Shown here piece by piece: positions 1-62,466 of a stretch of DNA of 64,000 nucleotides. Source of the DNA: Ceratorhiza oryzae-sativae (taxonomy: Eukaryota > Basidiomycota > Agaricomycetes > Cantharellales > Ceratobasidiaceae). Below the pieces are notes generated by a model. The model ran no database searches. It was not told where the DNA came from and worked only from the letters and a program-made list of their open reading frames with translations. The DNA lies in assembly GCA_030998015.1 (NCBI GenBank), contig JARWMV010000007.1, positions 62,001 through 126,000 on the forward strand, written 5' to 3'. How positions within the stretch are numbered: position 1 is the first letter of the stretch; every line of letters begins with the position of its first letter. The translations under genes and the position numbers were made by a program.

Positions 1-150
1 CAACATCAAAACTGTCACCCCTGCATCAACAAGCAACACTTGTGAACAGTTCACCAAAGGGGACCAGATCTATACAGTTAAGGATGGCAAGGCAGTAAAG
101 GGACAAATCTTGTCAATTGGACAAAATACCAAGGGATAGTCTGTCCCTAC
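1..150 (+). pseudogene. Gag fragment of host Gypsy element A (left piece)
   Basis: Reading in one frame gives a Gag segment resembling the linker before the zinc knuckle in elements C and F of this window (Y-x-V/I-K-D-G-K-A-V-K-G-Q-I-x-x-I-G). An in-frame TAG lies at about 137-139. The reading continues after the 17.9-kb insertion B: bases 146-150 (cctac) are repeated at 18054-18058 and the Gag frame resumes there toward a CCHC knuckle. It is therefore the interrupted 5' part of an old Ty3/Gypsy element whose 5' LTR lies left of the window. Confidence 0.8.
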
Positions 151-802
151 TGTCATGAGCCATGATCAATGGTCTTGTGGCAAACCATCATTTTTCCTTT
201 GTTTACCTTCTTTGTCTCATGGCTTGACCACTCTCCTTTCATGAGTAAGCACCTCCACTGGCTGACTGAGCCTTGGCCTATTATTAGTCACTTGCTTACT
301 GATCACAGCCATTCACCTTACTCATGCTACTATTATTAGTTATGGGCTGACTGATCACTGCCATTCACCCTTACTCATCCTCATGTACACTTAGTCACCC
401 CCTTGGTTAGAATAGTATAAAAGCAAGGAGAGCAAGCTGGTCTACCCCAGCTTGCTCTGCCTTGTCAATTCTCCTCTAAAGCACCCTGTGTGAAGAACAG
501 TCCCTAGCTGACTTATTAGCTTAAGTAACAGCTAGAAGGGTCTTGAGTCAAGACCATGTTGCAAGCCCCAGCACTAAGCATCTGACTTAGCTGCTGTCTA
601 CAGTTGTTTATACATTGACAGGTGTCCATCAGCCACAAGCACATAAGTGCATATAGTGTCAAGCCACAAGATGGTAAACACACACAAGGCATCAAGCCAG
701 GACAAGCCATGCATCAGCAGTAGTCCAGACATAGTCCAGACCCATCTGAGGCATTAGCCACTTGTAAAGCAAGTCCAACAACTGCTTTCAGAGGTTGTGA
801 CA
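151..802 (+). repeat. Element B 5' LTR
   Basis: 652-bp LTR matching 17403-18053. It has a TATA-like tataaaa at 416-422, conserved in the 3' copy at 17669-17675, so transcription probably starts a little downstream. Termini TGTCA...TGACA form a short inverted repeat. The primer-binding site just after 802 could not be matched to a tRNA by eye. Confidence 0.95.
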
Positions 803-828
803 TTGTAGAGCAAGCTTCCCACTGATCC

Positions 829-2149
829 ATGGCAACAACAATCCTTTCACCAAAGGAACAATCCATCAATATGTCCCAACCACCATCAAGACCAACTTCT
901 CAGCCAGAACAGGAATCTGAAATACCTAGAAGGGTAACTAGGAGTATATCTGTGCAGGGGGACACCCTTAGTACAACCTAGGGATCACCCAGAACTGACT
1001 ACCCCCATACAGCAACCCTCAAGACCCCCAACCATGGAACCACAAGAAGAGACACCAGGGGTGAGTACTGCTGTAACTAGGCAAGTAAATGAAATTCATC
1101 ACATCATCAATGAAATCACAGAACAACCACAAGACTCCAATCAAACCATCACCAACCCAGATGAAACAATCTGCCCCAGTAACCCACCAAATGAGACAGG
1201 GGTAACAGAGGCTGATATTATTGATGGACGCATAAGACCTAGATTCCCTAGACCCACAGTAGAGACAGAATCAGAATCAGAAGCCAAATCACAGAGCTCT
1301 CTGTCCAGCATTAGGAGTAGTATCATCTGACAACATGGGCCCATCATCTGTGTCCCTAGAGTACAAGAAGTACAGGCACAAGAGGCCTTTGCAAATGCAG
1401 TACAAAGGGCCAGGGAACATAATTGTCAAAATCAGATAGAAACACCTAGTGATGTGGATCTATAAGCAGCAGTCAACCCAGTACCACCCTACAGCACACA
1501 AGAAGACCCTGACCTCACTAGGGACAGACACCCCTTAGCAGGCATGCCAGTATGAAGACCAAGACAACAACCCCAGATTGAAAATCCAAGGCAAAGGACA
1601 CCAGCACCAATCAGGAAGCAGAACCCTCAAATTCTGGCACCCCAACCATGACAACCAGAATTAGGGAATATTGAAGGAATTCTTTGCAGAGAAGAAGTCA
1701 ATCAAATCATTGAGCACATGCAAAATTATAATGATCTCCAACCCATCCTGGCCATCCTGGAACATGTGGCAAACTGTGTCAATCAAGCTGCAATGACAAG
1801 GAAAGCAGCAGCCCAAAGGTGCCATGATCATGAAAACAATCAGATCATGGCAGCCATTGAGCACCCAACCCATAAATTTGAATCTTGGACAAGTGTCTTC
1901 CAGAATGTCCAGGAGATTGTACACAATAGTGCTACAAACATACACTCCCTTGGACAGGAAATGGCCAGAACACACAATGAACAGGAAAAGATCTTCCAGC
2001 TATTTGGAGAAACCAATACCCAAATCAGAGATCTGGCTCAGGCCATTAACCAAATGGGGAATAACATGACCAAGGCTTTCAAACAACAGACCAAAAATGC
2101 CAAAATCATCCAAGACTTAGCTCAAGCCATTGAAACCAAAGTATCATAA
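829..2149 (+). pseudogene. Element B upstream ORF (pre-Gag), degraded
   Basis: An ATG at 829 opens a Ser/Pro/Gln-rich, charged reading frame that shifts near 975 into the frame of the ATG at 1034 (open to 1330). A further long open stretch runs 1718-2149. The last part is predicted helical and rich in Gln/Asn/Glu, like a coiled coil. It lies directly before gag and shares its low-CpG composition, so it is probably an N-terminal structural ORF of the retrotransposon broken by a frameshift and stops. No recognisable domain. An untranslated leader is the alternative, but the long open stretches argue for former coding. Confidence 0.5.
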
Positions 2150-2176
2150 GTAGGGTCACAACAGAGGACTGATATT

Positions 2177-2958
2177 ATGGACAAGCAACATGACTGGACC
2201 CCACAACATGAATCTTCTAGAAGACAGCCACCACCAGAAGATTCAGAACCCTCAGATGATGAAGAACCTCAACCCCCTAAATCAAAAGGGAAGCTCCCAA
2301 AGGAAGACAATGTACCAAAGGGAGCCAGGGCCAAAAAACCTGAACCCTACACAGGGAAAAGAGGATGCAATGCAGAAGTATTCCTGATGAAGATGGAAAT
2401 CTACTACAGGGACTATGAAGGTCACTTCACTGACAAAAGGAAGATATCCACCTCCCTTACCAACGCGGGAGAAGAGGCTGCTGCGCAATGGGCAGCCCCC
2501 TTACTCAAACATGTGATTGAGGAAACACCTCACACATACATACAATCATGGAGAACACTCAGAGAAGCCTTCTTGCTAGCCTTCAGTGACCCACTCAAGA
2601 AGGAACAAGCCATCAGGGATATCAATAAACTGACCCAAGGAGAAGGATCAGCACAAGTATATGTCACCAACTTCAGAACCTTGATTCCTGAAGTAGATTG
2701 GGATGAGAAGGCCTTGATCAACCAATTTAAACAGGGTCTCAAACCAGATGTCTGCACTGAACTCAAGAAAATGGAGATCACCCATGATGTCTCTGAATGG
2801 TCACTAGAGAAGTACATGGACAGTGCCACACACATTGATGATATCCTCTTTGCAGGACAAGCCTTCAAAAATAAAAATCAGGAGGTCAGAAGGACTGAAG
2901 CAAAATCAGCTTCTACCAGCACCACTACTGTTAAGACAGGATGAGTCTCTGCAGAAAC
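2177..2958 (+). pseudogene. Element B Gag, N-terminal part
   Basis: ATG at 2177 opens a 255-codon frame. An acidic/Pro-rich N-terminus is followed by the retrotransposon Gag core around residues 55-215, with motifs F-L-x-K-M-E-x-Y-Y, W-R-x-x-R-E-A-F and F-x-x-L-I-P-E-V-x-W. The first stop (TGA at 2944) is probably a decayed CGA. The frame then runs up to the insertion point of element C (TSD gaaac 2954-2958) and resumes at 11273. The product would form the particle shell and package RNA. Confidence 0.85.
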
Positions 2959-3328
2959 TGTCAACAATGACAAGTCAGGCAGTGAGAAAAATAAAGGAAA
3001 AGAACTTGTATTCGATGAGAGGTCAAGTTCTTGAGGAGTCCTCTGCAAACTTGACCTGGTTTATATACATGATACAAGCCACATAATAACAAACAAGTCC
3101 GTACAGTGAGTCATGACCAATAAGACATAGAAGCAATAGAAGTGACTGCGGAACTGCGGGATTTCACATCAGAGTTGAAATACATCTTGGTTATTGGTCC
3201 AGAACATCCCCTGAATCACATGACACAGATATACCATAAAAGGCAAGTATGTTTTGAAAATGATCTCATAAAATGTAATAAATCAAGAAAATATTATAGA
3301 GTGGATATATGCATGTCAGTTCATGACA
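2959..3328 (-). repeat. Element C 3' LTR
   Basis: Matches 10898-11267 over its full length. On the element sense strand it begins TGTCATGAACTG and ends GTTGACA. The integrase/chromodomain ORF runs a few codons into it before stopping. Confidence 0.95.
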
Positions 3329-3339
3329 CTTCCCCCCTT

Positions 3340-5188
3340 CAAGTCATGGGGGTCATGGGGTGCCTTTGGGTGTGACTTGACATAGTCAGCTATGAGTTCT
3401 GGTGTGTTCACCAGATCATTGTAAGTTAGCCATTGTTGCTCATCGTAACCAAGCCATTTGATATAGTATTTGAAGATGTTAGACCTTTTGTTGTATTGCG
3501 ACTTGATGATCTGTTCCACTTTGAATTCTTCTTCCCCTTCAGGAGTTACCACAGGTGGTGGTGGGGGAACCTGACACCCATAGGGGTTGTCTTTATATTT
3601 GGTCAGGAGTGAAACATGAAACACTGGGTGTATTTTCATGGTTGTTGGCAAGTCCAGTTTGAAGGCATGAGTGCCATGTTGTGCTACCACCTTGAATGGT
3701 CCAACTCTCTTGTGGGCCAATTTCCTGGAGGCTTGTTGTGTGCATATATTCTTGGTGTCAAGCCATACTTTGTCTCCGACCTTAATAGCTTCTGGGGTCC
3801 AATGTTTCCAGTTGTAGTATTCCTTGATCCTCTGGTTTGATATTTCCAGAGCAGCTTTAAGTTCATCATGACCCTTTTGAAGCCATTCTGCATGGTTGTC
3901 TGCTAGGGGAAATTTTTGTCCCTCCTTGTCCCCAACTGCCAGCCTTGGGTGGAACCTGTAGTTTGCAAAGAATGGTGATTTGCCAGTTGAGGCATTGACA
4001 CCATTGTTGTAGGCAAATTCAGCCAAGGGTAAGAGAGAGACCCAATTGTCTTGCTGATCTGATATGTAGTGTCTGATGTACCCTTCTACTACCTGGATAG
4101 CCCTTTCAGATTGGCCATCTGTTTGGGGGTGATATGCTGTAGAGTAGGAGGGTTTTATATCTAGCTGTTTGTACAAATGCCTTAGGAATTTGGATGCAAA
4201 GTTGGGGCTGCAGTCTGAGATTGTTTTTCATGGTAACCCATGAAGTTTCCATACATATGTTAGGAACAAGTTGGTGCAATCCATAGCACTGGCTTCCAAT
4301 TGACATGGAATAAAGTGGACCATTTTTGTCAGGTGGTCAACAACTGTAAATATGGCATCAAACCCTTCTGACAGGGGTAACCTGGTGACCAGATTGTAGG
4401 TGATTTCCTCCCAAGGCTTTTCTGGTGCTGGTATTGGGTTTAACAGCCCTGGGGGAACTTGGTTGCTGTGCTTGTTCCTGATACAGGATTCACAATGTGT
4501 GACATATTTGTTGACTGATTTTTTCATTGATGACCATGTGTATTTGTGGTTTAACAATTTGTATGTCCTGAACTGCCCTGGGTGTCCTGCTGCTGGGTTA
4601 TCATGACAACTTTTGATGACCAACTTGTGAAGCTCTTTGTTATTTGGGACATAGATTCAGCCCTTGTGCTGTAGAAGTCCTTTGTCCAATTCCCAATTTT
4701 TGACCTTCTCATTATCATCTAGGGCTTTCAGCACTTTTGATAGGTGCTCGTCCCCTGGGATTGCATCCCTAATGAGTTGTTCCAGGTTGTGGTCTGGTGT
4801 GATTGCTTGTAACCATAATGATTTTAATTCCAAAAATTGGTTTTGTGCAAGCAGAGCTTGGCTCTCACCCCCCTCTTTAGGGATGTGCCTTGACAGCCTA
4901 GAGACTATGTCTGCCCAGCCATTCTTTGCCCCTTTGATGTATAGAATCTTGAATTTGAACCAGGATAGGAATTCATGCCATTGTGTTACTCAGCCATTCA
5001 GTGGCTGATTTGTCTTCCAATACCCTAAGTTTTTGTGATCACAGACAATGTTTACTGGGTGTTCAGCCCCTTCTAGCAAGTGGCACCAGTGTTTGAGGGC
5101 TTTTATAATTGCCAGCATTTCCTTGTTGTAGATGTCATAGTTCCTTTCTGCTGGGACCATGGCTTTAGAGTAGTAGGAGATTGGGTGG
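3340..5188 (-). pseudogene. Element C pol: RNase H end, integrase, chromodomain
   Basis: Minus-strand frames give, in order, the C-terminal RNase H segment (about 5188-4990), a linker, the HHCC/integrase zinc region (C-E-S-C-I-R-N-K-H-S-N near 4500), the integrase core ending in T-D-G-Q-S-E-R, and a C-terminal chromodomain with the typical Y-Y-I-K-W-L-G-Y. The frame is interrupted by stops at about 4668, 4990 and 4227, so it is inactive. The sequence aligns closely with element F pol, which is the better-preserved copy. It continues across solo LTR E1 into the RT half at 6503-8160. Confidence 0.9.
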
Positions 5189-6497
5189 TGTTATGGATCA
5201 CTAACATTTTCTATTATTTTAATCTGCTCTGCCAACCTCAAGCGATGCCTCTGTAATTAAATTGTGAAATACTCAAATTTGTATGCGCTCTGAATTGTAC
5301 TATTTTCCGTTCCATTAAATAGTACAAATTTCCCGCTCTCCAACGCATATTTTATTAAGTTTTTACAATAAGATCTCAGAGAGATACAGAGGTTGCGATA
5401 TTTCCTCTTATCAGGAGATATTGATTACAACATCGCACCGCTCATATCTCGGCAACCGCTTACGCTATCAAAGCGATCTTGTGCTCTATCGATAGCTAAT
5501 CTTCGGCGGTATCTGCTGCCCGAAGATCGTCGCGATCCACCGGATCCTCGCGCCGGAATGGCCCGAAGATCATTAGAATCTTACTGGACCATCAATCAAG
5601 ATCTAATAACTCCAGTGAGTCAGGAGAGCTTCCCAAATTGATCCAGAAGCTTCTCTGACTCACTTTATGACTCACTGAGATGTAGCCTCCATTCATTACA
5701 TGTATATACTATGATAATATGATCTACAAGCCAATAGCAGGTCTCAGATGCATCAATGCCTTTGATCCACACCCTGTCTTTACTCTTTTATCCTATACTG
5801 GGCTAGGGTGTACCCCAAGTATAGCAGTACCCTCTTTTGATGATCGCTCTGGCATGCATGTATCTATTTGGCTCTGGAATGCCCTCCTCAGGGTATAAAA
5901 GGACCTCCTCTGAGGCCCTTCCAGACCACCTCCCTTCACTACTCAACCCAGACCAGTTATTGGTTTCTTTCTCTCTTTCTATTTTCTCTTGTCTGTGTGT
6001 GATTTCTTATATAACTAGTACTGAGGAATAAAGTACCATATTAGTTATATACTGTCTGAGTCATTGTATCTTATATACAGAGATATATAAGGATACAATA
6101 TTGCCTGATTGAGCGTGACATTAAGTACCAGCTATTAGAGGAAATCTAAGTACCTGTAGCTGAGGAAGTACACGCATTAGGCAGCCCACCATCTATCCTA
6201 TAAGCTATCGCTTAAGCCTAGTATTAAGATTAGTATCAGTTAGTCCAAGCGACTAGGGCTGAACTACATTTAAGATATCTAAGGGAACCTGACCATAGTA
6301 GTCTTGCTCTTTATACCTATAAATTAGTCAGTTTACACTGTGAAAGATTAAGACTACCTTGAGTGTTACTTGATCGCATTGCAACTACTTTGAGCCTTCT
6401 TACTCTAGTCTAAGAAGTATTGAGTACGATAAGTGTATACTAACATATCTACATTTGCTTAAGCTCTAGATATTCAAGTGTACCCTGACCCGTAACA
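5189..6497 (+). mobile_element. Solo LTR E1 (1.3-kb LTR family)
   Basis: 1309 bp with termini TGTTA...TAACA and the 5-bp TSD ggtgg at 5184-5188 and 6498-6502. It has its own TATA box (tataaaa 5894-5900) and a poly(A)-signal-like aataaa (6027-6032), giving the sense strand as plus. Two relatives, E2 and E3, lie at 15773-17075 and 56498-57806. No internal coding sequence is present, so it is the product of LTR-LTR recombination. It retains many CpGs although it sits in a CpG-depleted host element, so it is the youngest layer here. Confidence 0.93.
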
Positions 6498-6502
6498 GGT
6501 GG

Positions 6503-8160
6503 AGCATTCCATCTTCTCCATATTGCAATAGTACAGTGCCTGTGGCATAGCCTGAGGTGTCTGTTTCCAAAATGAATGGTTTGCTGGGTTCTGGCTGAAT
6601 TAGGAGGGGGGCTTCCTTTAATTTCTGCTTCAGCAAGTTCCATGCCCAATCCCTTTCTTCTGTCCATTCCCACTTTATGTCCTTCTTGACAAGTTCGTAA
6701 AGACATTTTGTGATTTTCAAAAAGTCCTTTATGAAGTGCCTTAACCAGTTTGCAAACCCCAGCCCTTCCAGGACTTCAGTTGGGTTGGTAGGGGTTTGCC
6801 ATTCAACAGCTTTTTTGACCTTGGCTGGGTCTACTTTAATTCCCTGGGGAGTCACTACTATTCCCAGGTACTCAACTTCAGTGACATCAAAAATGCATTT
6901 CTCTAGAGCACAGTATAGACCAGCCTTCTGAAGACAACGCAAGACTTCTCTGATGTGTTCATCATGTTCTTCTTGGTTTTTGGAGCACACCAATATGTTG
7001 TCCATATAAATTACAACATAGATGCCCTCAATGTCTTGGAATTCTTCTTGAATCATACCCATAAAGGTCCCTGGTGCATTCTTCTGGCCAAATTGCATGA
7101 CTAGAGGCTCATACAGCCTGTATTTGGTCTTGAAAGCAGCTTTCCATTTGTCTCCTTCCCTAATCCAGATAAGATTGAAACCCCATTTTAAGTCAAACTT
7201 GGTGAATATCTTTGCCCCATGCAGGGTTTCCACAATATCATTGATGTGTGGGAGTGGGTATACATTGGAGACTGTCATCTCATTTAGCTGCTGGTAGTTG
7301 ATGCACATGTGCAATTTCCTGTTTTTCTTTTTAACAAATATGACTGGGGATGCCATTGGTGACCTTGAGGGTCTAATGTGCCCTGCTTTCAATTGCCAGT
7401 CTAAGGTCTTGTGTCATTCCACATCTTCCTTGACGCCCACACTGTATATGGGACCATGCCTTGGCTTAGCATCTGGTTTTAGGTCTATCTCCATATCCCA
7501 CTTTCTATGAGGTGGTAATGGCTGGACATTGTCCTCTTCAGCAAATATTTTCCTGAATTCTTTATATTTTGCTGGAAGTGAGTCTAAAGAGTCCAACTGG
7601 AGCTCTTTGGGCTCATTTGCTCACACATGTAGTGGTTTGGTAATGCAATGCTTTAGGCATATTGGCAAGTTGAATTTCATGTCCTTTCCATCCCAATCAA
7701 TGTTGGGATTATGGAATTTGAGCCATGACATGCCCAGGACTAAATCATTTTTGCCAATGTTCACAACATAGGCACTGAGAATCTCTCAGTGCTCCTGGAT
7801 ACACAACTCAAAGGTGCAATAGTGGGTCACAGACCCAGAGTCAATCTCCCTTCCATTGATTACTTGTAGTTTTTTTGGTGTTTTTAGGGAGACAGTAGGG
7901 ATACAATATTGTTTAACAAGGTCTTCATGTATAAATACTGATGTGGCCCCTGAATCAATCATGGCCCATCCATTGAACCTTTTCATATTGTATGCAGACT
8001 TGTGTTCAGGGGTTATGTGCAGAGGGAATGCATGAAAGAAAAACTGAAGTTGTGATTGGTTTCCTAACAACATACATTCCATTTCTATATTTTTATTTTC
8101 ATTCTGCACTTTTTGTAACATAGCACCCAAGACCACCCCCCTGGCACAGTTTGAGCTCAT
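6503..8160 (-). pseudogene. Element C pol: protease and reverse transcriptase
   Basis: On the minus strand, an aspartic protease with intact D-S-G-A-T (about 7960) is followed by the linker G-M-S-W-L-K-F-H-N-P and an RT (about 7400-6600) with V-I-F-V-K-K-K-N and F-T-K-F-D-L-K-W-G-F. The catalytic box reads Y-M-D-N-I-L rather than Y-x-D-D. RNase H begins E-T-D-T-S-G-Y just before the E1 insertion. Stops at 7785 and 7411 break the frame. The product would have been the Gypsy Pol polyprotein. Confidence 0.9.
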
Positions 8161-9550
8161 TCTTTTACTGACTCCTTGTTGGTTGTTTCTACATCCTCTA
8201 TGACTGCCTTGTATCCTGACATCTTGGCTGAGGGGCATTTGGCAGTGATATGACCACGCCCTCCACAGTTGTAGTAGGTATTTGTCCCTTTCCCTTTTCC
8301 TGCACTATCTATGTCCATTGTGTCTGGGTCTTTTGCCTTGGGGGCCACTGGTGGGTGATTGTCCTTCTTCATGTCCTTGAAGGATTCTTGTACATTGGAG
8401 TTGCTACCATCATAGCAAACAGTGGGAACCATGAAGCCCTTGGCATTGGGCCCAATGGCCACGATTTGGCCCTTTACTGCCTTGCTGTCCTTGATCTTAT
8501 ATACCCACTCTCCATTCTTGAATTTTTCCCTTGGGGGTCCACTTTGGGAGGCTGTCAGTGGTTTACTGGATGAGGTGTTGTTGCTGCTAGACTTGTTGTT
8601 GCCTCCATGGGATGTCCTTTTGCTACCAAACAAGATGAGGTGGTGGTCAATTTCCAGGGCCTGCTGGGTGAGCTGGGCAAAGGTTTTGGTGTGGGGGTCA
8701 TAGTTTTGGGCCACCATGCTGTCTGTTACATCCAATGATAGACCATCATAGAATTGGTCATGCATGGCCACATCATTGTAGTTGAGCCCTGTTGAGTATA
8801 GGTTGAACAAAGTGAGGTAATCCTGAACCGTCTTGGATTGTTTCAGTTTCCACCATTTATCTGGTTATTTTTGGTGTGGTTCAGGTCCCCATAACAAGTA
8901 GTGAATTCCTGCCAAAACAGGTTGGCATCATGAAGCCATGGAGCTGTGGTTCCAGGGTTTAGGATTTCAAATTCCTCATATGAGTTAACCCATTTGGCAG
9001 CAGACCCTTTGAGGTAGGATGTAATGAAGGCGACCACCTGATCTGCAGAGTGCCCACTCATGTTTGTGTTGATGTATCACACACATGCAATCCTGAATGA
9101 GATGGTGTCTTCACACTTTGTGCCATCAAATTTTTGGGGGGCAGCCATCTTAACTTTTGCAGTTGATCTGCTAGAGGGGGTGGCAGCTGCTGGTTGCAGT
9201 CGGGTCATGCTGGAGGAAGGTTGTATTTGAGCAGTGCTTGTGCCACCCAAGGAGGTGTTGATCTGCACTTCAATGTGCATGATAGTGGTTTGTAGGATTG
9301 CTAACATGCTGACTAAATTGTTGATGTTGGTGGCTAACCCAGCCACATCAGCATCTATTTTTGTCTGGTTTGTGGTGAGCTTTGCTTCAAGTGAATCTGT
9401 GTAAGTTTTATTGTTGTGTTCGACATCTCCAATATCATTTTGGAGATTGTTGGTTCATTCTCGTAATTCATCCATTGACTGGAGCATATAAATGACTTTT
9501 TCCCCATCAGACACATTTGCCCAGGCAGGGGTCAAAGGTTGCAACACCAT
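8157..9550 (-). pseudogene. Element C Gag
   Basis: Minus-strand Gag, probably starting at the ATG at 9550 (M-V-L-Q-P). A coiled-coil-like N-terminus is followed by a Ser/Thr-rich spacer, the Gag core (W-V-N-S-Y-E-E-F; F-W-Q-E-F-T-T-C-Y-G-D), and a CCHC knuckle C-G-G-R-G-H-I-T-A-K-C whose first cysteine lies two residues earlier. Stops or frame breaks near 9076 and 8835 show it is dead. It is nearly collinear with element F Gag (24678-26068). Confidence 0.85.
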
Positions 9551-40796: not shown

Positions 40797-41733
40797 TTAG
40801 TTTAGCTTGGGGTTCAGCACAGGATCGGGGACACAGTCTTCGTTGTTAAACTGAGTGCGCGCACCTCGAGTCCGGTCCAGGATTGCTCATGTGTTTCGAC
40901 CGCCGACTTTGATCCTTCCCACAGCAGCATGTAACATACCAAGATTGATAATGTGGGCAGTGTTGAGTCGGTTATATGTAACAAGAGGGGTCTCGGGTCG
41001 TGTCGCGTCGAGGCCGCGCGTATTGCACTCTTGTACGAGAGCGAGCAAATAGGGCTTTCGAGACTCAACACTATAACAGTGTTAGTGTATAGTAAGGAGG
41101 GCGGAGTTGATCAATGCTTACGGGTGATTTTGCTTATATTCGACATAGAATATGTCCTGGACACGGCCGTAGTGGATCACACGATGTGGTTCATCCTCGC
41201 GAAGGCGCTGTCGATAATTTTCGTCTGGCAATAGCTCATACTAGAAAAATCGTTTGTTAGTCCATCAAGCATGATCAGAATATATATTGTAGCACATACC
41301 CGTATGAATGAGTTATCGCGAGCGATTGATGATTGCTGAATCAAGCGAGCAGCGCGAACTCGGTCCCCCATACTCGCCATGCGGAACCGACCATGGCGAA
41401 CGAGTGTGTCCCAGTCAATCTTGTCGTGCAGCTCCTGGTACGTGGCCCTTCGGCCAAATTCCTCAGCCAGTCCAAAGTACCTAGTGAATCTTCTCTTGAG
41501 CTGATCACTAGCGCGATACCGCCGATTGACCGGTTGGCCAAGCACGTAGTCACGGTCTACAGACATTTAGATATCAGGATACTATATAGTTAAGGCGGGT
41601 ATATGCTACTTACTAACATCGTATATCACCTCTTTTGTGGATGTCATCTCTCGCTCTTGGGGCGCTATTCGGGTGGTCGGTCGTACAAGCGAGGGCATAT
41701 TGTGTATCTGCGCCACGATTTGTAGCTGTGCAC
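40797..41733 (-). pseudogene. tnp2 transposase gene, C-terminal part
   Basis: The minus-strand frame joins across the DUF6589/RecQ element: R-R-R-A-Q joins L-Q-I-V-A-Q-I-H-N-M-P. It continues through an intron near 41620-41570, the block L-G-Q-P-V-N-R-R-Y-R and D-T-L-V-R-H-G, then C-N-T-R-G-L-D-A-T-R-P-E, N-T-A-H-I-I-N-L-G and A-I-L-D-R-T. It ends at TAA (40799-40797). A TGA replaces the Trp before A-I-L-D. These blocks are the usual C-terminal half of fungal Tnp2 proteins. Confidence 0.85.
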
Positions 41734-41936
41734 TAGACTCCTGCCCAGTCTATCCTCGTACGTCACGTGCTTTTAAGGGTTGTTTAGGTGAGCACGTTTG
41801 TACTCGGACGACTGGCACAAATCTACTTGTTTATTTATGTTTTCCCGCTCTGCCACCTGTCACTACCTCCACTTTCGTCACTCGAAGAGTCACTTTTACA
41901 CGTCTCACGTGATTCTTTCGGTCATCCCTTCGTCAC
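41734..41936 (+). repeat. Left 203-bp terminal inverted repeat
   Basis: Starts TAGACTCCTGCCCAGTC. It contains five GTCAC words (41762, 41859, 41877, 41889, 41932) and two CACGTG palindromes (41764-41769, 41906-41911). The DUF6589 ORF starts 22 nt inside its inner edge, so the repeat likely carries the promoter. Confidence 0.95.
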
Positions 41937-41957
41937 AGTGGCTTGTCGTGTACCAAA

Positions 41958-44711
41958 ATGCTCTCTCGACAGCAAATTGATCGTGTTTCTTATGTTCTTC
42001 GGCGCGAGCTGAACATAACACTATCAGATTTAGTCCGCGAGTGCATACAGGGTGCTACAAATTTTATTCCATTTACTGGCTATGCATACGCTGTCCAAGA
42101 AGAGATTCGCAGCCCCACCGCCCTCGCCAAAATTCTCGGCTGCCTAGTTAATAACCCTCGGACCTCGTCAATTACTAGCCGTATTGCTCGAAATATCACT
42201 TCCCGGTCATGTGTATTAGAGCTGAGCAAGGTCTTGTCGCAATCTGCTGGTTTTCACTTTAACGTCAGCCGCGCGTCATCTGAGCGATTCCATCAGTTCT
42301 CGAGCGTCAAGATGGGGAAAACCTTTGAAGATACTTGTCCGACCCTTTGGGGACTGTTTGGAATCCTTCTGAATGCGGGGACTGTCAGGAATGCAGCTGA
42401 AAAGGCGAACAAGCGAGGAGATTATTGGACAGAAATCACGTACAACGAAGACGAACTCATACGCCCAGGCTCCGAGACACAGGAGTCTCAAACAGTCTCG
42501 GAAACCCTTGCAGATATGCCAGACGAAGACTGGGGCGACGATTTAGTCGAGGAAGATTGGGTCGAAATTGAATCATCTGGCCTCGGGGCAACGGAGAAAG
42601 TAGCCACAGAGGGCAAGGCAGACGTATGGAGCACAAATGCCGGCACGCCCTGGAAGAAGAGGTCTGGGGCTGGTTTTCGACGTCAGCTAGAAAGAACAAA
42701 GCTTGTAAGTTACTCTAGTGCCTAATTTCAGCGATTTAACCTACTAACAGATTGGTTAAAGCGACGCATCGCGCTGTTCAACATATGCATGATCAATAGC
42801 AACATGCGATGTAATGCGCTACAGGCGCTGGTCGGATTATTCGTGCATTCGTCGAATGTGCCCGAGAAAGTGATTGAGCTCTTAGCCCATATGGGGTTAT
42901 GCATCACGCCGTCGTCGATCAATCTGATGATCGAGCACATGTCAGAAGAGGCTCAAAATGCACTCAAAAACGACATATCTACCATACTCGTCGCACTTGG
43001 ATACGATAATTTGGAGATTCGATTCGATACCGAGAATCCTACTGCAACAAATCCCGGTAGACTAGTCAGTTTAACAACGGCAACCTGCATACCGTTGCTC
43101 CCTGGAACTCAGAAGGAGCACCTGCGTGTGTCAAAGGAGCTATGGGCGTGCTCACCATTCAATCTCAATCGGACAAAACCCCTCGTAGTTCCCTCACACC
43201 CAAAGCTAATGGACCTTATGGCGAAGGCAGCATGTCCTCCTGAGGATCCGAATAGTGTTGAATCGCTCCTCACCTGGCATGTTCGTCATATGCTGTTAAG
43301 TGACAACGTCGAAACGATCCCATCAAAGCTCAAAGACCACTTTCGGTGAGAAAATCTGGGCTTACCAATTTTTCGGAAACGGGTTCCCCGCGTAAAGACA
43401 ACGCAGTGTCCAATGCGCTCGATGAACATCAGCGTATCGAGTGTTTCCGGCAACGGCGCCGCAATCGAAAATATGCTTGACCAGCGCGGAATTACAGCCG
43501 AAGACTTGGAGGAGTTTGCGGGCCTCTATCACGCCGATCTAGGTGCCGGGGAAAAGGTTGGGAGCCTTCAGGAGAGCCGTGCGATCGAGAAAACTGCTTG
43601 GGATCGACTGCAGTCTCTTGTTTTTATCATCGGGTGGTTTCATACTCGCATGGCAATGGTCGAGGCACTTTGGCGTCTCTGGATTCTGCCTCAACGAACC
43701 CGCCCCGGCCATATAACCCATCCCCAATCCCTTCTCGAGCTCTGTGGTATCTTGCGACCTAGAGACATGGGGAAAATCACTACAAATCCCGGTTTCTGAA
43801 TGGCTCACAGCTTGATTGAGCACTTGACGCTTGCACTTATTGCCGACGCATGGTGCCTGGCTGTTCAGGAGGAGTATGGCGTTGCTCTGGGCGAGTGGGA
43901 GCCCACTTGGGAGCAAGTAATGGAGATGTCGAGGAAGGTTATTCGAGGCTTTGTGGCGCTGCAAATGTATCGACCCGGGAGCGGCGGAAATACTGCTGAT
44001 GCGGTTAACGATCAAGTGCGGTTATTTCTTCGAAATGGTCTACATTACCTGGCGATCACTCAAGCATCCCGGTATGGCGACGTTGGTCGAATGGAGGAAC
44101 TTCTGCCCGAGTGGATTTATATCTGGAAGCAAACTGGGAAACATAAATATGCTGCTCATTACTCTCGGTTCTTAATAAACCTAAACGGGGGCTGGCCGGC
44201 TGAATTTGCCGAGGTCATTCGACAAAATTGGCTCATTAACCCAACAGGCAAAATCGACGGATTCCGAGGGGTCGATTGGCTCATAGAACGGAATAACTAC
44301 CTGACCAAATGTCTCTACTCTGGCTCGGGATCGAATCGGACGCTCGAGCAATTGATCAAACAGTCGGTTTTGATCGATGTATATCAATCGACGTATGCCA
44401 TTATCGACAAGAACTTTTATCTAACAGGAAAAACAGTATGGCACCCTCCACCTATTGTCAAGACTGGGTTAGCACTGGTACGACGATACATTGAGAATCA
44501 GCAAATGAGCTCACGTCAACATGGACGAACCTTATCAACAACCCCCATAAACGCGTTCGCTTCGGCCATCAAGTCTGCAGTTTCCAAGCCAGGCGAGTTC
44601 TGGAAAGAGGTCGAGGAGAATCAAGACGATGAGGATGCCAATGGAGTGGAGACAGAAGAGGCCAGGGCTAATCGCGAGTTGAGCGCCGCTGACCTAGGAG
44701 TAGATGAGTAG
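41958..44711 (+). pseudogene. DUF6589-like protein of the TIR element
   Basis: ATG at 41958. The first open part, about 249 codons, ends in an acidic region (D-E-D-W-G-D-D). A GTAAGT donor at 42705 and ctaacag at 42750 indicate an intron of unclear exact ends. The frame then runs to 44711 with two TGA codons (43347, 43797) in Arg-expected, CGA-like positions. Recognised blocks: M-R-S-M-N-I, S-G-N-G-A-A-I, H-A-D-L-G-A-G-E, D-R-L-Q-S-L-V-F, W-F-H-T-R-M-A-M, H-Y-S-R-F-L-I-N-L-N and S-R-Y-G-D-V-G-R, which I recall from the fungal DUF6589 family. The biochemical role is unknown. It is the candidate transposase here. About 900 residues with an acidic C-terminus. Confidence 0.75.
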
Positions 44712-44799
44712 GGAACAGATATATTATAGTGGCTAGCAATAGATAAAGGAGCGGTAGAGGTGCAAACTAAAGTAGTGATATCGAGGATGAATTTGGCGT
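44712..44799. other. Gap between convergent DUF6589 and helicase genes
   Basis: About 90 bases with AT-rich words suited to 3' ends of both genes. No ORF. Confidence 0.5.
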
Positions 44800-47006
44800 T
44801 CATGTTCGGGCAAGTTCGGTTATCTTCTTAGGACATTGCCAGAATGCCCCTAATGGATAGATACACGTATTAGCATACATAGTTTAAGAAGAGAATTATA
44901 GTAAATACATACTGGTATGGCCTATTTCACCACAAGCACTGCACTTTGGAGGTGCTTGGGTCTTAGTTTGGCGAGCAGGAGGAGCGCTGGACGAAGAGAG
45001 AGCTGTTTCGGGCTTGGGAGGAGGGGGTGGCGGATGCGAGTTGTGGACGATGGTGAGCACCTCAGTACCATGCTCAGGCATGTAAACCCATTTGAGCTCG
45101 CGCTCAAAGTCTTCCATTGTCGAGATCAGTTGACGCCAAGCAAGTTGAACAATTCTTACAACCTGCTCGTCGTCAATGATCCCCAGGCCACCAACTGGGT
45201 GGTATGGGCCCCATTTTTTCTCAGCCAATTCATCACGCCAGATGTACAGCGTCTCCTCGAGGCCATGATCCATGTTAGTCCAATGTTCAGTGTTGTTGTC
45301 AAGAGTAGTTGGACCTCGCTGGCGTGGAGCTTGCGTCGGTATCTTCTCCATTTGATCTAGGAATGCGGCAAGCTCGGGGTTGCAGACGTCGCAGCACTCG
45401 GCAGGGGGAGGCGGTGGAGGGCAACAACGAGGGCAGCAATATTTAGGATCACCCTCTGAAAGAATTTTCAGAATCGGATGGGACACCTTATGTAAATGAA
45501 GGCAACGCACCTTTTGGAACCGCAGGGTTGGCGAAAAACTGATTACCGGGCTGTCGTCGACATCTCGGTCCATCAGGGTGAAGATCAGCATTGATAAACA
45601 CATCAATTACAGGATCCAAGTCGTCTGCACACTTTAGGCTCTTTTTTTTGACTTGGCTTGCTGGGAAGAGAACAACGCGACCTGGTTATTCTTGATGGAC
45701 TTGCTTACTTGAGTAGAATTAGCAGAGCTAGCTCCAGCACAGTGTCGTTTTGAGCCCTCTGTGGCTGCCGTTTCTTGATCTTCAAGGGCTCGCTTCCTGC
45801 TCTTCACTGCCTTCTTTGGTTTGCGGGAAAACCTGGGCTGGAACAGGACTACAGCCTTCCCTTTCCAGCCGGGACCTCTTGCTGGTCAACCATTGCACTG
45901 ACAGACCGTAGGATAATCTTCTGGTATTTCATACTGTATAATATAATCAATATCTGGAATGTCGATCCCCTAGCTAGCATGTTAATAGTATAACTTAATA
46001 CAAGGGGAAAATACTCACCATGCCTGCTACATCAGTGCAAACAATACCCCAAATCTCGCTGCTTGCAAGCTTTGCCATGGCATCCTCGTTAAACCCACGG
46101 GTCATCTCAGCGTGAACCCAGATGATTTGATGGCGAAGTTCGGGTGGCAGTCGATCTTGAAGGAACTTAGTGGCACACTCACATCGCTTCTTAGTGCGCA
46201 TAAAAACCATAAATTTTGGGGGCGGGAGCGACTCCGATGTGAGGCCAAGTGGAACCAATGGCACTAGGTTGTGCAAAGAGCCAAGCATGTACTGCATAGG
46301 GCACGCAATTGTTGCTACGTTTGCTCAGTCGTTTGATAGACGTAAAATCTCAATGTTGTAAAGATTGAGGGCTCTCTGAAGCTCGCCAATCATGCTCGGG
46401 GACAGTGTGGCAGACAGAGCAAGGAACGTCGCATCCCGAAGGAGGTGGCATAGATAGTGGAGTCGGCAGTAGGCAGGTCGAAAATCGCCCCATTCAAGAA
46501 CACAGTGGGCCTCGTCGAATATGATGCGTGTAACCTGGCTCCTGAAACTAGGAATATCCCATAGATATTTCCGAAAGTGAGGATCCTCATCTATGTACTC
46601 TGGGGAAGCAATCACAAGTTGATATTCTCCAGCAGCAATATCCTATAATAATCAATTTAGTTTAGTAATAAAATGTCAGAAAACAACGTACTTTGAAGAG
46701 TTTGTCAGTTGCTGTCTCCAATGTTAAGTTGACGGCTTTGATTCCAAGCTTCTTGAGACCCGAGTTGGATGCGTGCTGAGCTCCCAAAAGCTGTAGAGGG
46801 CTAACAAGAATACAGACTCCCGAGCGCTGCCAGATAAATGGCATCAAGAAAGACAGGGATTTTCCAGAGCCAGTCGGAGAGACCAGAACAGAATGGAGAC
46901 CACGAAGTTGCTGATCACATATTTGCACTTGAAATTTGCACGGTTTAACACCAAAAACCTTGAAAGTCCTCTCAGTGATATCAGATAATGGAGTGGATTC
47001 AGGCAT
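44800..47006 (-). pseudogene. RecQ-type DEAH helicase of the TIR element
   Basis: Minus-strand ATG at 47006, 46 nt inside the right TIR. Exon 1 (47006-46692) has Walker A S-P-T-G-S-G-K-S-L. After a 49-nt intron, exon 2 (46642 onward) has I-I-F-D-E-A-H, then L-A-L-S-A-T. After the next intron (donor at about 46018) comes T-D-V-A-G-M-G-I-D-I-P-D-I, motif V of RecQ helicases. The C-terminal region (about 45606-44896) is Cys/Pro-rich and ends in a knuckle-like C-S-A-C-G-E-I-G-H-T. TGA codons at 46325 and about 45889 replace Arg. Likely ATP-dependent 3'-5' unwinding for transposition. Confidence 0.82.
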
Positions 47007-47051
47007 GAGCCTGGGTGACAAATCTTGAAAATTCAAGGTAGATACAAAAGA

Positions 47052-47254
47052 GTGACGAAGGGATGACCAAAAGAATCACGTGAGACGTGTAAAAGTGACT
47101 CTTCGAGTGACGAAAGTGGAGGTAGTGACAGGTGGCAGAGCGGGAAAACATAAATAAACAAGTAGATTTGTGCCAGTCGTCCGAGTACAAACGTGCTCAC
47201 CTAAACAACCCTTAAAAGCACGTGACGTACGAGGATAGACTGGGTAGGAGTCTA
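47052..47254 (-). repeat. Right 203-bp terminal inverted repeat
   Basis: Inverted copy of 41734-41936. Mismatches are G/A near the tip and one CG/TG. It supplies the same upstream sequence to the helicase gene as the left copy does to the DUF6589 gene. Confidence 0.95.
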
Positions 47255-50014
47255 GCTGTGCACGCCGTCGGATGTAGTTGTCAAGAAATTTGTACGGTCG
47301 AACCCGGTTCATGAGGGCAGGTCTGAGTAAGTGACCGCAAAAACGCTCCATGACGATGGACCATGTAGCCGAGAGCAGACTGGTCCGGCGAATATAATAG
47401 GGGATGTGGAACAGCGCATGGATTGTCAAAACGCAGGCTGGGAGCCAATCGTGGTCGTATCGATAATAGAGCCTGCTCGTCTCAATGGTGTGAATTAGGG
47501 ATGGACAGTTTAAGATTACATACCTCTCGTAGTCTTGAACCCAGTTCCGAATCTTCTCCTCGAGCTCGTCGACCTGTGCGAGCGTGATTTCGAGTTCGAG
47601 ACACGAAACAATTATCTCACGCATCACTAAAAAGTGCCTGATATGACATATAAGCACAAGAACTAGACGGCATATACGAAATAAACTCACTGGTAGTATT
47701 CATTCGGGAGCACTCCGTTGAGTAAGATAGGCCCGAGGTATGTAAACCAAAACGAATGAGCTTCAGCCTTGTACAAGTGAAAATCTTTATCGATATCAGG
47801 TATTGTACCGACGAACTGCGCTGGTATCATCTTCGTTGCTTCTGCGGTCCGTTCTCCGATTAGTTTCCATACAGCGTTACCTAGAGCGTATGGTTCGTCG
47901 CCCTCCGTGATCCATTTGAACGTCCCCTTCCAGTGCTTGACCATGTTGGGGACCAGGTTTTCGAATATGAGATGCATCATTTCATACGGGGCACAACTCA
48001 AAAGGTTGATTGATTTGAGGCTGGCAAGCACAGGCTTGCTGTGAAGACCACACTTCTGCAAGAGTCGGGTCCGTTCTGGGGAGTCTGGAAGCCTAGAAAG
48101 TCGATCATAGAAATACAAAAAATTGTCGTGCGTGTGCATGAAAGGAATCAAATCGTCAGGAGATGTCACAGCAGCTTCTTGGCCAGGGGGTTTAGGTACA
48201 GTCAAGGGAACATAGTACGTCACTGTGCGACCATGATAGAGTGTCCCCGGCCAGAGACACGTACAACACGGAGTCATGGCGTTATGGCCCCTAAGCATTA
48301 GTAATTTGGAGATGGCAGGGATATCACCGAAAAGGATAATAAGGAAAGCTTGAAGTTTGAATGCAACGGTATTGCCCTGAAGGGCCTCAATCCCAACCAC
48401 TACTTTAATCGCATCAATGCCCTCAGCGAGCTGCAAAAGCTCTTCGACAAGAGGAACGAGAAAAGAATTTATATCCTTACACTCCTTAGGTCCAGGAATA
48501 ACACCGACACAGATAATATTCTCGAGGCGTGTCCGAATCGAAGTATGGAGGTTGTAGTTTACCAAGATCAGTGGCCACGCAGTTGAAGTCCCCTTACGCC
48601 GTCGTCGCTTGAACATAGTGAAACCATCAGTTCCCAGACCAAGAGCAACATCATTGGGATTATCAAAGTACCGGTAATTATCACCCGCCTTGACCTGAGT
48701 TTGCCTGAGTGTTTGATATATCTCGCCGTCGAAGACATCCGATATAATCCCAGGGTGAGTGGCTTGATGCGCTTTGTGATTGGCGCGGTGCCGCATATCT
48801 GTTATAGTACGCGCGTTTTGAAACAGGCCAATCAGTTGGGGGATGAGGGGAGTATATGTGAATTTACGGCGGGACTTCCCATTGCTGAACCGAGCATTGC
48901 CGCAATAGGGGCATGCATCCAGGTCTCAGTACTTGCCGAGATAGCAGATACACAATTCGACACAACAGTCGTATCTGCAAGACTCCAGGCCAGAGAGGAT
49001 CTTGAGATGCCGCCAGGCAACGAAGTCGCTCAGGAGCCCGAGCTCCTCACAGGTGTGTAATCGTAGGTCCTTGTATGTTGCCTGTGAAAAGTGCGATCGG
49101 AGTCGGGCAGCCAGGAACTTGAGGGTCTTGCAATCTGTATCAGTCAAGTCGCGGTCGACTAGAGGATTGGGTTAGGATTAAGCAGAGTCGGCCTAGAGAG
49201 ATAAAACTTACACATTTCGATCCATTCCTCATAGGCAATATCGCCAAGGTGATGTCGTAGAAAGGCCAGCAACTCTTCGTTGTTCATCTCTGGTTCGTTG
49301 TCAACGTCCAAACCAGGTGGGCCATCATGTTCATGGAACCCAGGGTCTTGCTCAGCGCTGCCTACAGAGAAATTGTCAGCCTCGATATCTTGTATTTCGA
49401 TAGGTTCTAGTTCGTCCTCGCTCTCCCAGTCTTCAACCACTACTGGAGGATTCCGGTATGCAGCTGGCGCTGGGCCGGGTATGTCTAGTGGGGGTGGGAG
49501 AGTTAGCTTACGGGTAAAATATATAACTGGTTAGTTTACTGGGAGGAGGTATGAACAAGTCGTCAACACCCTCATCGCCATCATCTTCAATACCCTCAAG
49601 TTCCATCATGTCGTCTGCTAGAGGAGTCAATATGATGGTGGATTAGCTATATATGACATGTTCAGCTGCGTACTCACCAATATCATCATCTTCCAGCGCA
49701 ATCAGGGCAGCTAGGTTGAGGTTGTGCGGGAGGGGAGCTGCATCGGCAGGAGCTGGTTCGACTTCCCCAAAGGCTGGGCCAGCTTCGGGAGCGGGGTTGC
49801 CATAGTTGGGAGCTATGCCAGGGTCGGGGAATGGGTCGTCGTGCTCGAAAAGCATGTTGGCCTCGTTAAGATCAGGCAAAGGAGCTGGGTCAGCATTGCG
49901 TTGGGCGCGAGCGGCAGCAATACGGGTGGTTATTCGAGTGCGATTCGCAGCTTTGCGCATGCGGACTTCCTGGTCGGTGTTGAAATTTTGCAAGCAACAG
50001 GGGCAGACAGGCAT
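47255..50014 (-). pseudogene. tnp2 transposase gene, N-terminal and core part
   Basis: ATG at 50014 (M-P-V-C-P-C-C, a Cys-rich start). Exons about 50014-49678, 49617-49540, 49484-49212, 49158-47691, 47637-47524 and 47475-47255, all with GT-AG introns of about 45-65 nt. Acidic linkers lead to C-P-Y-C-G, D-V-F-D-G-E-I-Y, G-L-G-T-D-G-F-T-M-F, C-V-G-V-I-P-G-P-K-E-C-K-D, L-R-G-H-N-A-M-T-P-C-C-T-C and M-E-R-F-C-G-H-L-L, the Tnp2 (PF02992-type) signature. A TGA near 48944 replaces Arg before D-L-D-A-C-P. The Asp in T-D-G-F is probably catalytic. Continues at 41724. Confidence 0.9.
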
Positions 50015-61476: not shown

Positions 61477-62466
61477 TCCACCATCTACCAATGTCATCAA
61501 AGCAGCTTCAGTACTGCCCCCAGATGCACAGGCTACTGGCTCACCAAATGCTGCTGCCTCCAACTCTTGGGTTGACAAAGCCAACCACACTCATCCTGTT
61601 GCCCAGCCCCTTTCTCTTACACAACCCACTCTACCAGCCATACCTGCTGCGCCATTCACTACATCTGCTGAGTCCAATGGCAGTGTTGTGTGGCAGGGCT
61701 TGGTTATAACACTCAATATGCTGGAGCACCTTTGTGAGCTTGCCAGGTGCCAGTTTGCTGGCAAGGCAGTCTGGGTGCCACCAATGTACCAGGATCTTGT
61801 CAATATTCTATCTATTGACCCCAACTACAACCCATTCACTGAACCCAAACCCCTTCCTGAGTTGAATGCTACTATGAACCATGGTAACTGTGGTGGCCAT
61901 AAAGGTGCTGCATACAACAACACCAGCTCCATCACTGATACCTTGGATCCCTCCCCTGGCATCATAACAACTCTGGTTGCCACCAAGTCCAAGGCTAAAC
62001 CAAAGGCAAAGGCAAAGTAAGTACCCAAGTCTGAGCTTGAGTCTGAAGCCAAGCACAAACCTGACTACAAGCTTGGCCAGCATGACAATGTGGTTCTAAA
62101 TATGGCTGAAGGCAAAACAAAACCTGAGGGTAGTAAGAAGGCTGGGGCAACAAACTCAAAACAAGGTGGTAATGTGCTAGGGGCAAGCAAGGCAGCTGGA
62201 ACAAGGAAGGCACCAACAAAGGATACTGTGGTTGAGCAGGGTAAGTCTACTATTAGGAGAGGAGGCACTGGTAAGGGGAAACAAGTTGCAGAAGGGGGAA
62301 AGGCCATAGCTGGTACAAGTGATGAAACAACCCATGGCCAGTCCAGAAAGGTATGTAAGCCTAACAATACCTTGCATATCACCTCTAATGTACATCACAA
62401 ATGCAGAAGAAATCTGCCCAAGACACCACTGTCCCTGCCTGTTGCTCTGCTTGCATGAAGGCCTAG

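Follow-up and report, generated by a model that had tools for sequence, protein, structure and literature searches.

The 64,000-nucleotide stretch of DNA analysed here (the window; positions 62,001 to 126,000 of contig JARWMV010000007.1 from the basidiomycete Ceratorhiza oryzae-sativae) contains, at 41734-47254, an inserted element with long terminal inverted repeats (TIRs) that carries two genes on opposite strands, one belonging to Pfam family DUF6589 (PF20231) and the other encoding a RecQ-like helicase. We argue below that it is a broken cut-and-paste transposon, whose DUF6589 protein would be the transposase and whose helicase would be its partner. Its features are as follows (homologues are given by their P and L numbers, contigs of the genome by C numbers).

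41725..41733, no strand: left target-site duplication gctgtgcac, present once in the empty site C42:58691-58891 (L071)
41734..41936, + strand: left TIR, 203 bp, starting TAGACTCCTGCCCAGT
41958..42704, + strand: predicted exon 1 of the DUF6589 gene, 249 codons, an open frame with start and splice sites placed by eye against the homologue P0014
42705..42761, + strand: predicted 57-bp intron (GT...AG), placed by eye where the homologous protein P0014 joins
42762..44711, + strand: exon 2 of the DUF6589 gene, predicted DDE transposase core with two in-frame TGA codons, homologous to the L014 frame
44896..47006, - strand: RecQ-like helicase gene, several exons, broken; start placed by eye, family taken from the intact homologue L014
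47052..47254, - strand: right TIR, 203 bp, ending ACTGGGTAGGAGTCTA
47255..47263, no strand: right target-site duplication gctgtgcac

An inserted element and its empty site

Inverted arms of 204 nt each, 99% complementary, lie at 41733-41936 and 47052-47255; because their outermost pair belongs to the flanking duplications, the TIR itself is 203 bp long. Both edges of the element carry the 9-bp direct repeat GCTGTGCAC (41725-41733 and 47255-47263). When the flanks were joined with one copy of this duplication and searched against the window's own assembly (48.8 Mb, 253 contigs), they matched C42:58691-58891 at 196 of 201 bases, gap-free and with a single gctgtgcac, and longer flanks matched the same site at 97.5% (1470 bp) and 96.2% (1616 bp). 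The C42 site is the empty, pre-insertion site, and the boundaries of the element are therefore fixed. The original prediction, made from the window alone, had described 203-bp inverted repeats, a flanking gctgtgcac and a precisely broken tnp2 frame, and each is borne out; a tnp2 match (PF02992) lies at 47690-48925 in the right flank. That all this is a chance inverted repeat or an artefact of assembly has next to no probability: nothing was found in its favour, and it is refuted by the near-perfect arms, the duplication, the empty site and the like structure of all 16 loci at which both ends were examined.

The two genes of that prediction also stand. The PF20231 profile matches the + strand at 43242-44429, in the second exon of a gene whose homologue in L014 is a 650-codon open frame, this frame in turn being a homologue of P0002, the protein modelled here; the nearest organism-named protein relative of L014 is from Ceratobasidium, at 84% identity. 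On the - strand, the family of the helicase was assigned through L014, in which DEAD and Helicase_C domains exceed the Pfam cut-off (helicase superfamily 2), the matches among PDB sequences are RECQ1, WRN, BLM and RECQ5, and the middle exon matches NCBIfam recQ_fam with E 2.6e-20 (72.7 bits, below that model's cut-off for a whole protein). Judged by sequence, the element's helicase belongs to the RecQ family, the window copy being RecQ-like by its homology to L014. Cysteine-rich stretches seen by eye in the C-terminal part of the window helicase (44899-45606, - strand), namely CCPRCCP...CCDVCN and a CxxCxxxGH near the end, are perhaps zinc-binding.

The window copy is broken, with stops in both genes. 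In-frame TGA codons interrupt the DUF6589 gene at 43347-43349 and 43797-43799 and the helicase gene at 46325-46327, and alignment of the C-terminal helicase region shows three more stops, of which some could fall within unrecognised introns.

A family of two types in one genome

The original prediction had proposed searching for the gene pair and for copies with matching TIRs and duplications, and in the window's own genome both recur. A search with PF20231 gave at least 51 matches in at least 26 loci, and one with the L014 helicase exon at least 32 matches in at least 30 loci. At 22 of the 26 DUF6589 loci a helicase on the other strand lies no more than 6 kb away, the pair being convergent at nine, as in the window (type I), and divergent at 13 (type II); the two gene orders coexist in one genome. 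The remaining four are on C9, C51, C55 and C3 (185 kb). On C9 the helicase is 17 kb from the DUF6589 gene, and both sit inside one 21-kb pair of type I ends (C9:161814-183166, 9-bp duplication gtttatagt), a size that may reflect later insertions or extra cargo; no helicase match was found anywhere on C51 or C55, nor near the C3 locus. Conversely, eight of the 30 helicase loci, that of C9 and seven others, are more than 6 kb from any DUF6589 locus. In a helicase tree covering 18 of the 30 loci, type I copies group together, weakly (57/92), and type II copies are not united in a single group, since a sequence provisionally labelled host_C22 falls among them.

All 16 loci examined at both ends (of 26) have inverted ends flanked by duplications of 7-9 bp. 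Type I elements start with TAGACTCCTNCCCAG, or with CAGACTCC in the C3 copy, and have TIRs of 176-204 bp, the two arms of each copy agreeing at 90-99% (lengths are 203 bp in the window and 176-194 bp in four further copies); type II elements start with TAGTCTCTTCCAC, or with TAGTCTCTACAC at one end of the C235 and C10 copies, and have TIRs of about 20 bp, judged by eye. Among type I copies the duplication is 9 bp on C7 (the window), C244, C9, C79 and C3, and 8 bp on C43, C83, C232, C240 and C241 (the last with one mismatch); among type II copies it is 9 bp on C251, C243, C235 (752 kb) and C10, 8 bp on C235 (1.57 Mb) and 7 bp on C233. Lengths are thus 9 bp in nine loci, 8 bp in six and 7 bp in one, and no motif common to the duplications was seen by eye. 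Two type II copies on C235 and a third on C10 share 99.7-100% identity across 3.6 kb and have differing duplications; the type has therefore moved recently.

As a search pattern allowing up to two mismatches, the TIR start gives mostly noise (49 + 63 matches against 33 + 38 in the control), and type I ends were accordingly taken from pairs at 0-1 mismatch and from the C3 copy that starts with CAGACTCC; for type II ends the pattern gave 15 + 8 matches against 0 + 3. The sequence TAGACTCCCTCCCAGC, which often matches the TIR start with two mismatches, was considered as a short non-autonomous family and rejected, as the three sites examined resemble, on inspection by eye, coding sequence of Gypsy-type retrotransposons.

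Across type I copies (the window and the convergent loci) the in-frame stops counted are mostly TGA, a bias that suggests directional decay such as repeat-induced point mutation or methylation damage.

DUF6589 as a predicted transposase

The predicted structure of the relative P0002 has a DDE/RNase H-like transposase fold, the likeness being remote, and on the fold of this model and its predicted catalytic residues, D259, D436 and E687 (or D683), the DUF6589 protein is probably the element's DDE transposase. The original prediction had suggested exactly this, with the helicase as partner and a comparison with RNase H-fold transposases as the check; the remote RNase H-like fold, the linkage of the genes, the ends and duplications, and the joint selection described below lend it support. 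Neither single-sequence nor profile searches of DUF6589 matched a solved structure. Searched against Pfam at E up to 1, 72 DUF6589 proteins (A3) matched no other transposase family, hAT and P-element models included, among the best 25 of 34 families. Searches for relatives, in which about 8000 candidates of 0.55-1.75 times the query length were scored each time, returned overlapping sets of 33, 100 and 23 proteins; those with a named organism are all from agaricomycete fungi, and many others are unnamed metagenome proteins. Among candidates of these lengths, no helicase or XPG domain is listed in a DUF6589 relative. Animal-like baits for fusions of DUF6589 with XPG, the nuclease of AcademX, returned only fungal or unnamed relatives, which is evidence neither way.

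Two other well-known groups invite comparison with the element. hAT (Hermes) and P elements, which make 8-bp duplications and are not known to encode a helicase, may resemble it in their fold, the prediction here being an RNase H-like core in which a large helical segment separates the second Asp from the Glu; the searches above gave no sequence match between them and DUF6589. Helitrons likewise encode a helicase, but they are not known to have a TIR or to make a duplication, both of which are present here. They rely on an HUH nuclease/Y1 transposase, as excerpts of PMC12730594 describe, and no HUH nuclease domain was found in the scanned pieces of L014.

Relationship to known transposons

Judged by how AcademH has been described, the element is most likely a member of that lineage or of the one nearest to it. 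As papers citing the original account present it (Academ superfamily; Kojima 2020, Mob DNA 11:15), AcademH comprises helicase-encoding TIR transposons of a DDD/E superfamily with 9-10 bp target-site duplications, a DEAD/Helicase_C helicase and low copy number in Basidiomycota. The present family matches that summary in its superfamily 2 helicase with DEAD and Helicase_C (in L014, to which the window copy is homologous), in the remote RNase H-like (DDD/E) fold predicted for P0002, in its TIRs (203 bp in the window) and in its low copy number (at least 26 loci in 48.8 Mb of a basidiomycete genome). Its duplications are 8-9 bp long at 15 of 16 loci, against the 9-10 bp so described; six of them measure 8 bp and a single one 7 bp (the window's is 9 bp). 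The coexistence of two gene orders in one genome may be a further difference.

These points bear on whether the family might instead be a lineage outside both Academ and Kolobok, in which DUF6589, as a distinct DDE transposase, acquired its RecQ helicase separately, and which occurs in agaricomycete fungi in two architectures, convergent with TIRs of about 176-204 bp and divergent with TIRs of about 20 bp. The shorter duplications (7-9 bp rather than 9-10 bp), the two gene orders and the Pfam result for the 72 proteins speak for this, as does the literature searched, in which the name DUF6589 was not found. Of four papers listed under PF20231 none is on transposons by its title, three falling outside fungal biology and the fourth being a study of the gut mycobiome. 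Against it, Pfam may simply have no Academ model, and AcademH, in the accounts cited, likewise carries a helicase, makes duplications of comparable length and occurs in the same phylum; we regard an independent lineage as unlikely, if deserving of some weight. KolobokH, a TIR transposon with RecQ known only from fungi according to excerpts of PMC9587614, is alike in host kingdom and helicase. However, Kolobok duplicates TTAA (same source), and the duplications of 7-9 bp found here refute that identity, the opposite strands of the genes being a further difference; it is very improbable that the element is KolobokH.

It follows that two claims of the original prediction need revision. Helicase-encoding TIR transposons have already been published as AcademH and KolobokH, at least as far as the sources above describe them, so the claim that the element defines a new DNA transposon group is not supported, and the statement that RecQ proteins are not standard cargo of TIR transposons is out of date because AcademH and KolobokH (RecQ) are in print.

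The role of the helicase

Selection on the two genes was compared between copies as proportions of nonsynonymous (pN) and synonymous (pS) differences. Between L013 and L014, pN is 0.096 and pS 0.730 over 642 codons of the DUF6589 core, and 0.117 and 0.759 over 209 codons of the middle helicase exon; as synonymous sites are near saturation, the resulting ratios are rough (about 0.04 for DUF6589). The recently parted pair L013 and L017 is relaxed, with ratios of 0.31 for DUF6589 and 0.85 and 1.14 for two pieces of the helicase, a pattern to be expected were L017 in decay. Taken together, these values suggest that both genes were long kept working together by purifying selection.

The helicase could nevertheless be passive cargo, with DUF6589 alone mattering for movement. 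Other DDE transposons are mobile although they encode no helicase, the L017 helicase is near neutral against that of L013, and at four of the 26 DUF6589 loci a helicase is missing from the surrounding 6 kb. Yet the helicase is close by at the other 22, in both gene orders, it is strongly constrained between the older copies L013 and L014, and loss of constraint is expected in L017, a broken copy; passive cargo is accordingly quite improbable.

We therefore favour, with a probability of roughly three in four, the reading of the window as one inserted, now broken, two-gene cut-and-paste transposon with a DUF6589 transposase and a RecQ partner, belonging to AcademH or to its closest sister. Under this proposal the DUF6589 protein would bind the TIR ends (TAGACTCCT...), cut the element out and join it to the target with a stagger of 8-9 bp, the filling-in of which would create the duplication. 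The RecQ-like helicase, as a partner encoded by the element, would probably unwind the transposon ends or process the excision gap and strand-transfer intermediate, though the step at which it acts is inferred only. In Drosophila, repair at sites that P elements have left draws on the host's own BLM helicase, and an element-encoded RecQ could therefore lessen dependence on the host.

This would give a function to DUF6589, a family found in many mushroom-forming fungi: its proteins would be transposases or their remnants, and catalogues listing them among host genes would therefore need correcting. A DDE transposase and a RecQ helicase apparently kept together by purifying selection also make the question of what a cut-and-paste transposon does with a helicase testable. 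If the link to AcademH is true, a Repbase lineage is tied to a Pfam family; if the lineage is separate, it would be the third case of a DDE transposase joined independently to a helicase.

Atypical copies

Several loci depart from the two standard arrangements. At C236:229256-231052 a TIR-like start (one mismatch) and a helicase fragment stand 1.2 kb apart and lack a DUF6589 match, perhaps a deleted copy, and the helicase loci C99:10394-14839 and C23:146847-150687, also without a DUF6589 match and 3-4 kb from type II-like ends, are perhaps type II copies that have lost the transposase gene. On C240 (L017, C240:277500-286500) the type I element at 246-7084 of the locus, with duplication tgatgcct, is immediately adjacent to a 216-bp TIR belonging to an outer element at 30-8500, which starts with CAGACTCC, has the 9-bp duplication acaggtaag and contains no separate DUF6589 match. 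Once the inner element is subtracted, about 1.6 kb of the outer one is left, too little to hold both genes, and the outer element is likely a non-autonomous relative of the C3 element. Five divergent DUF6589-helicase loci within about 60 kb at C237:57000-118000 form a nest of elements.
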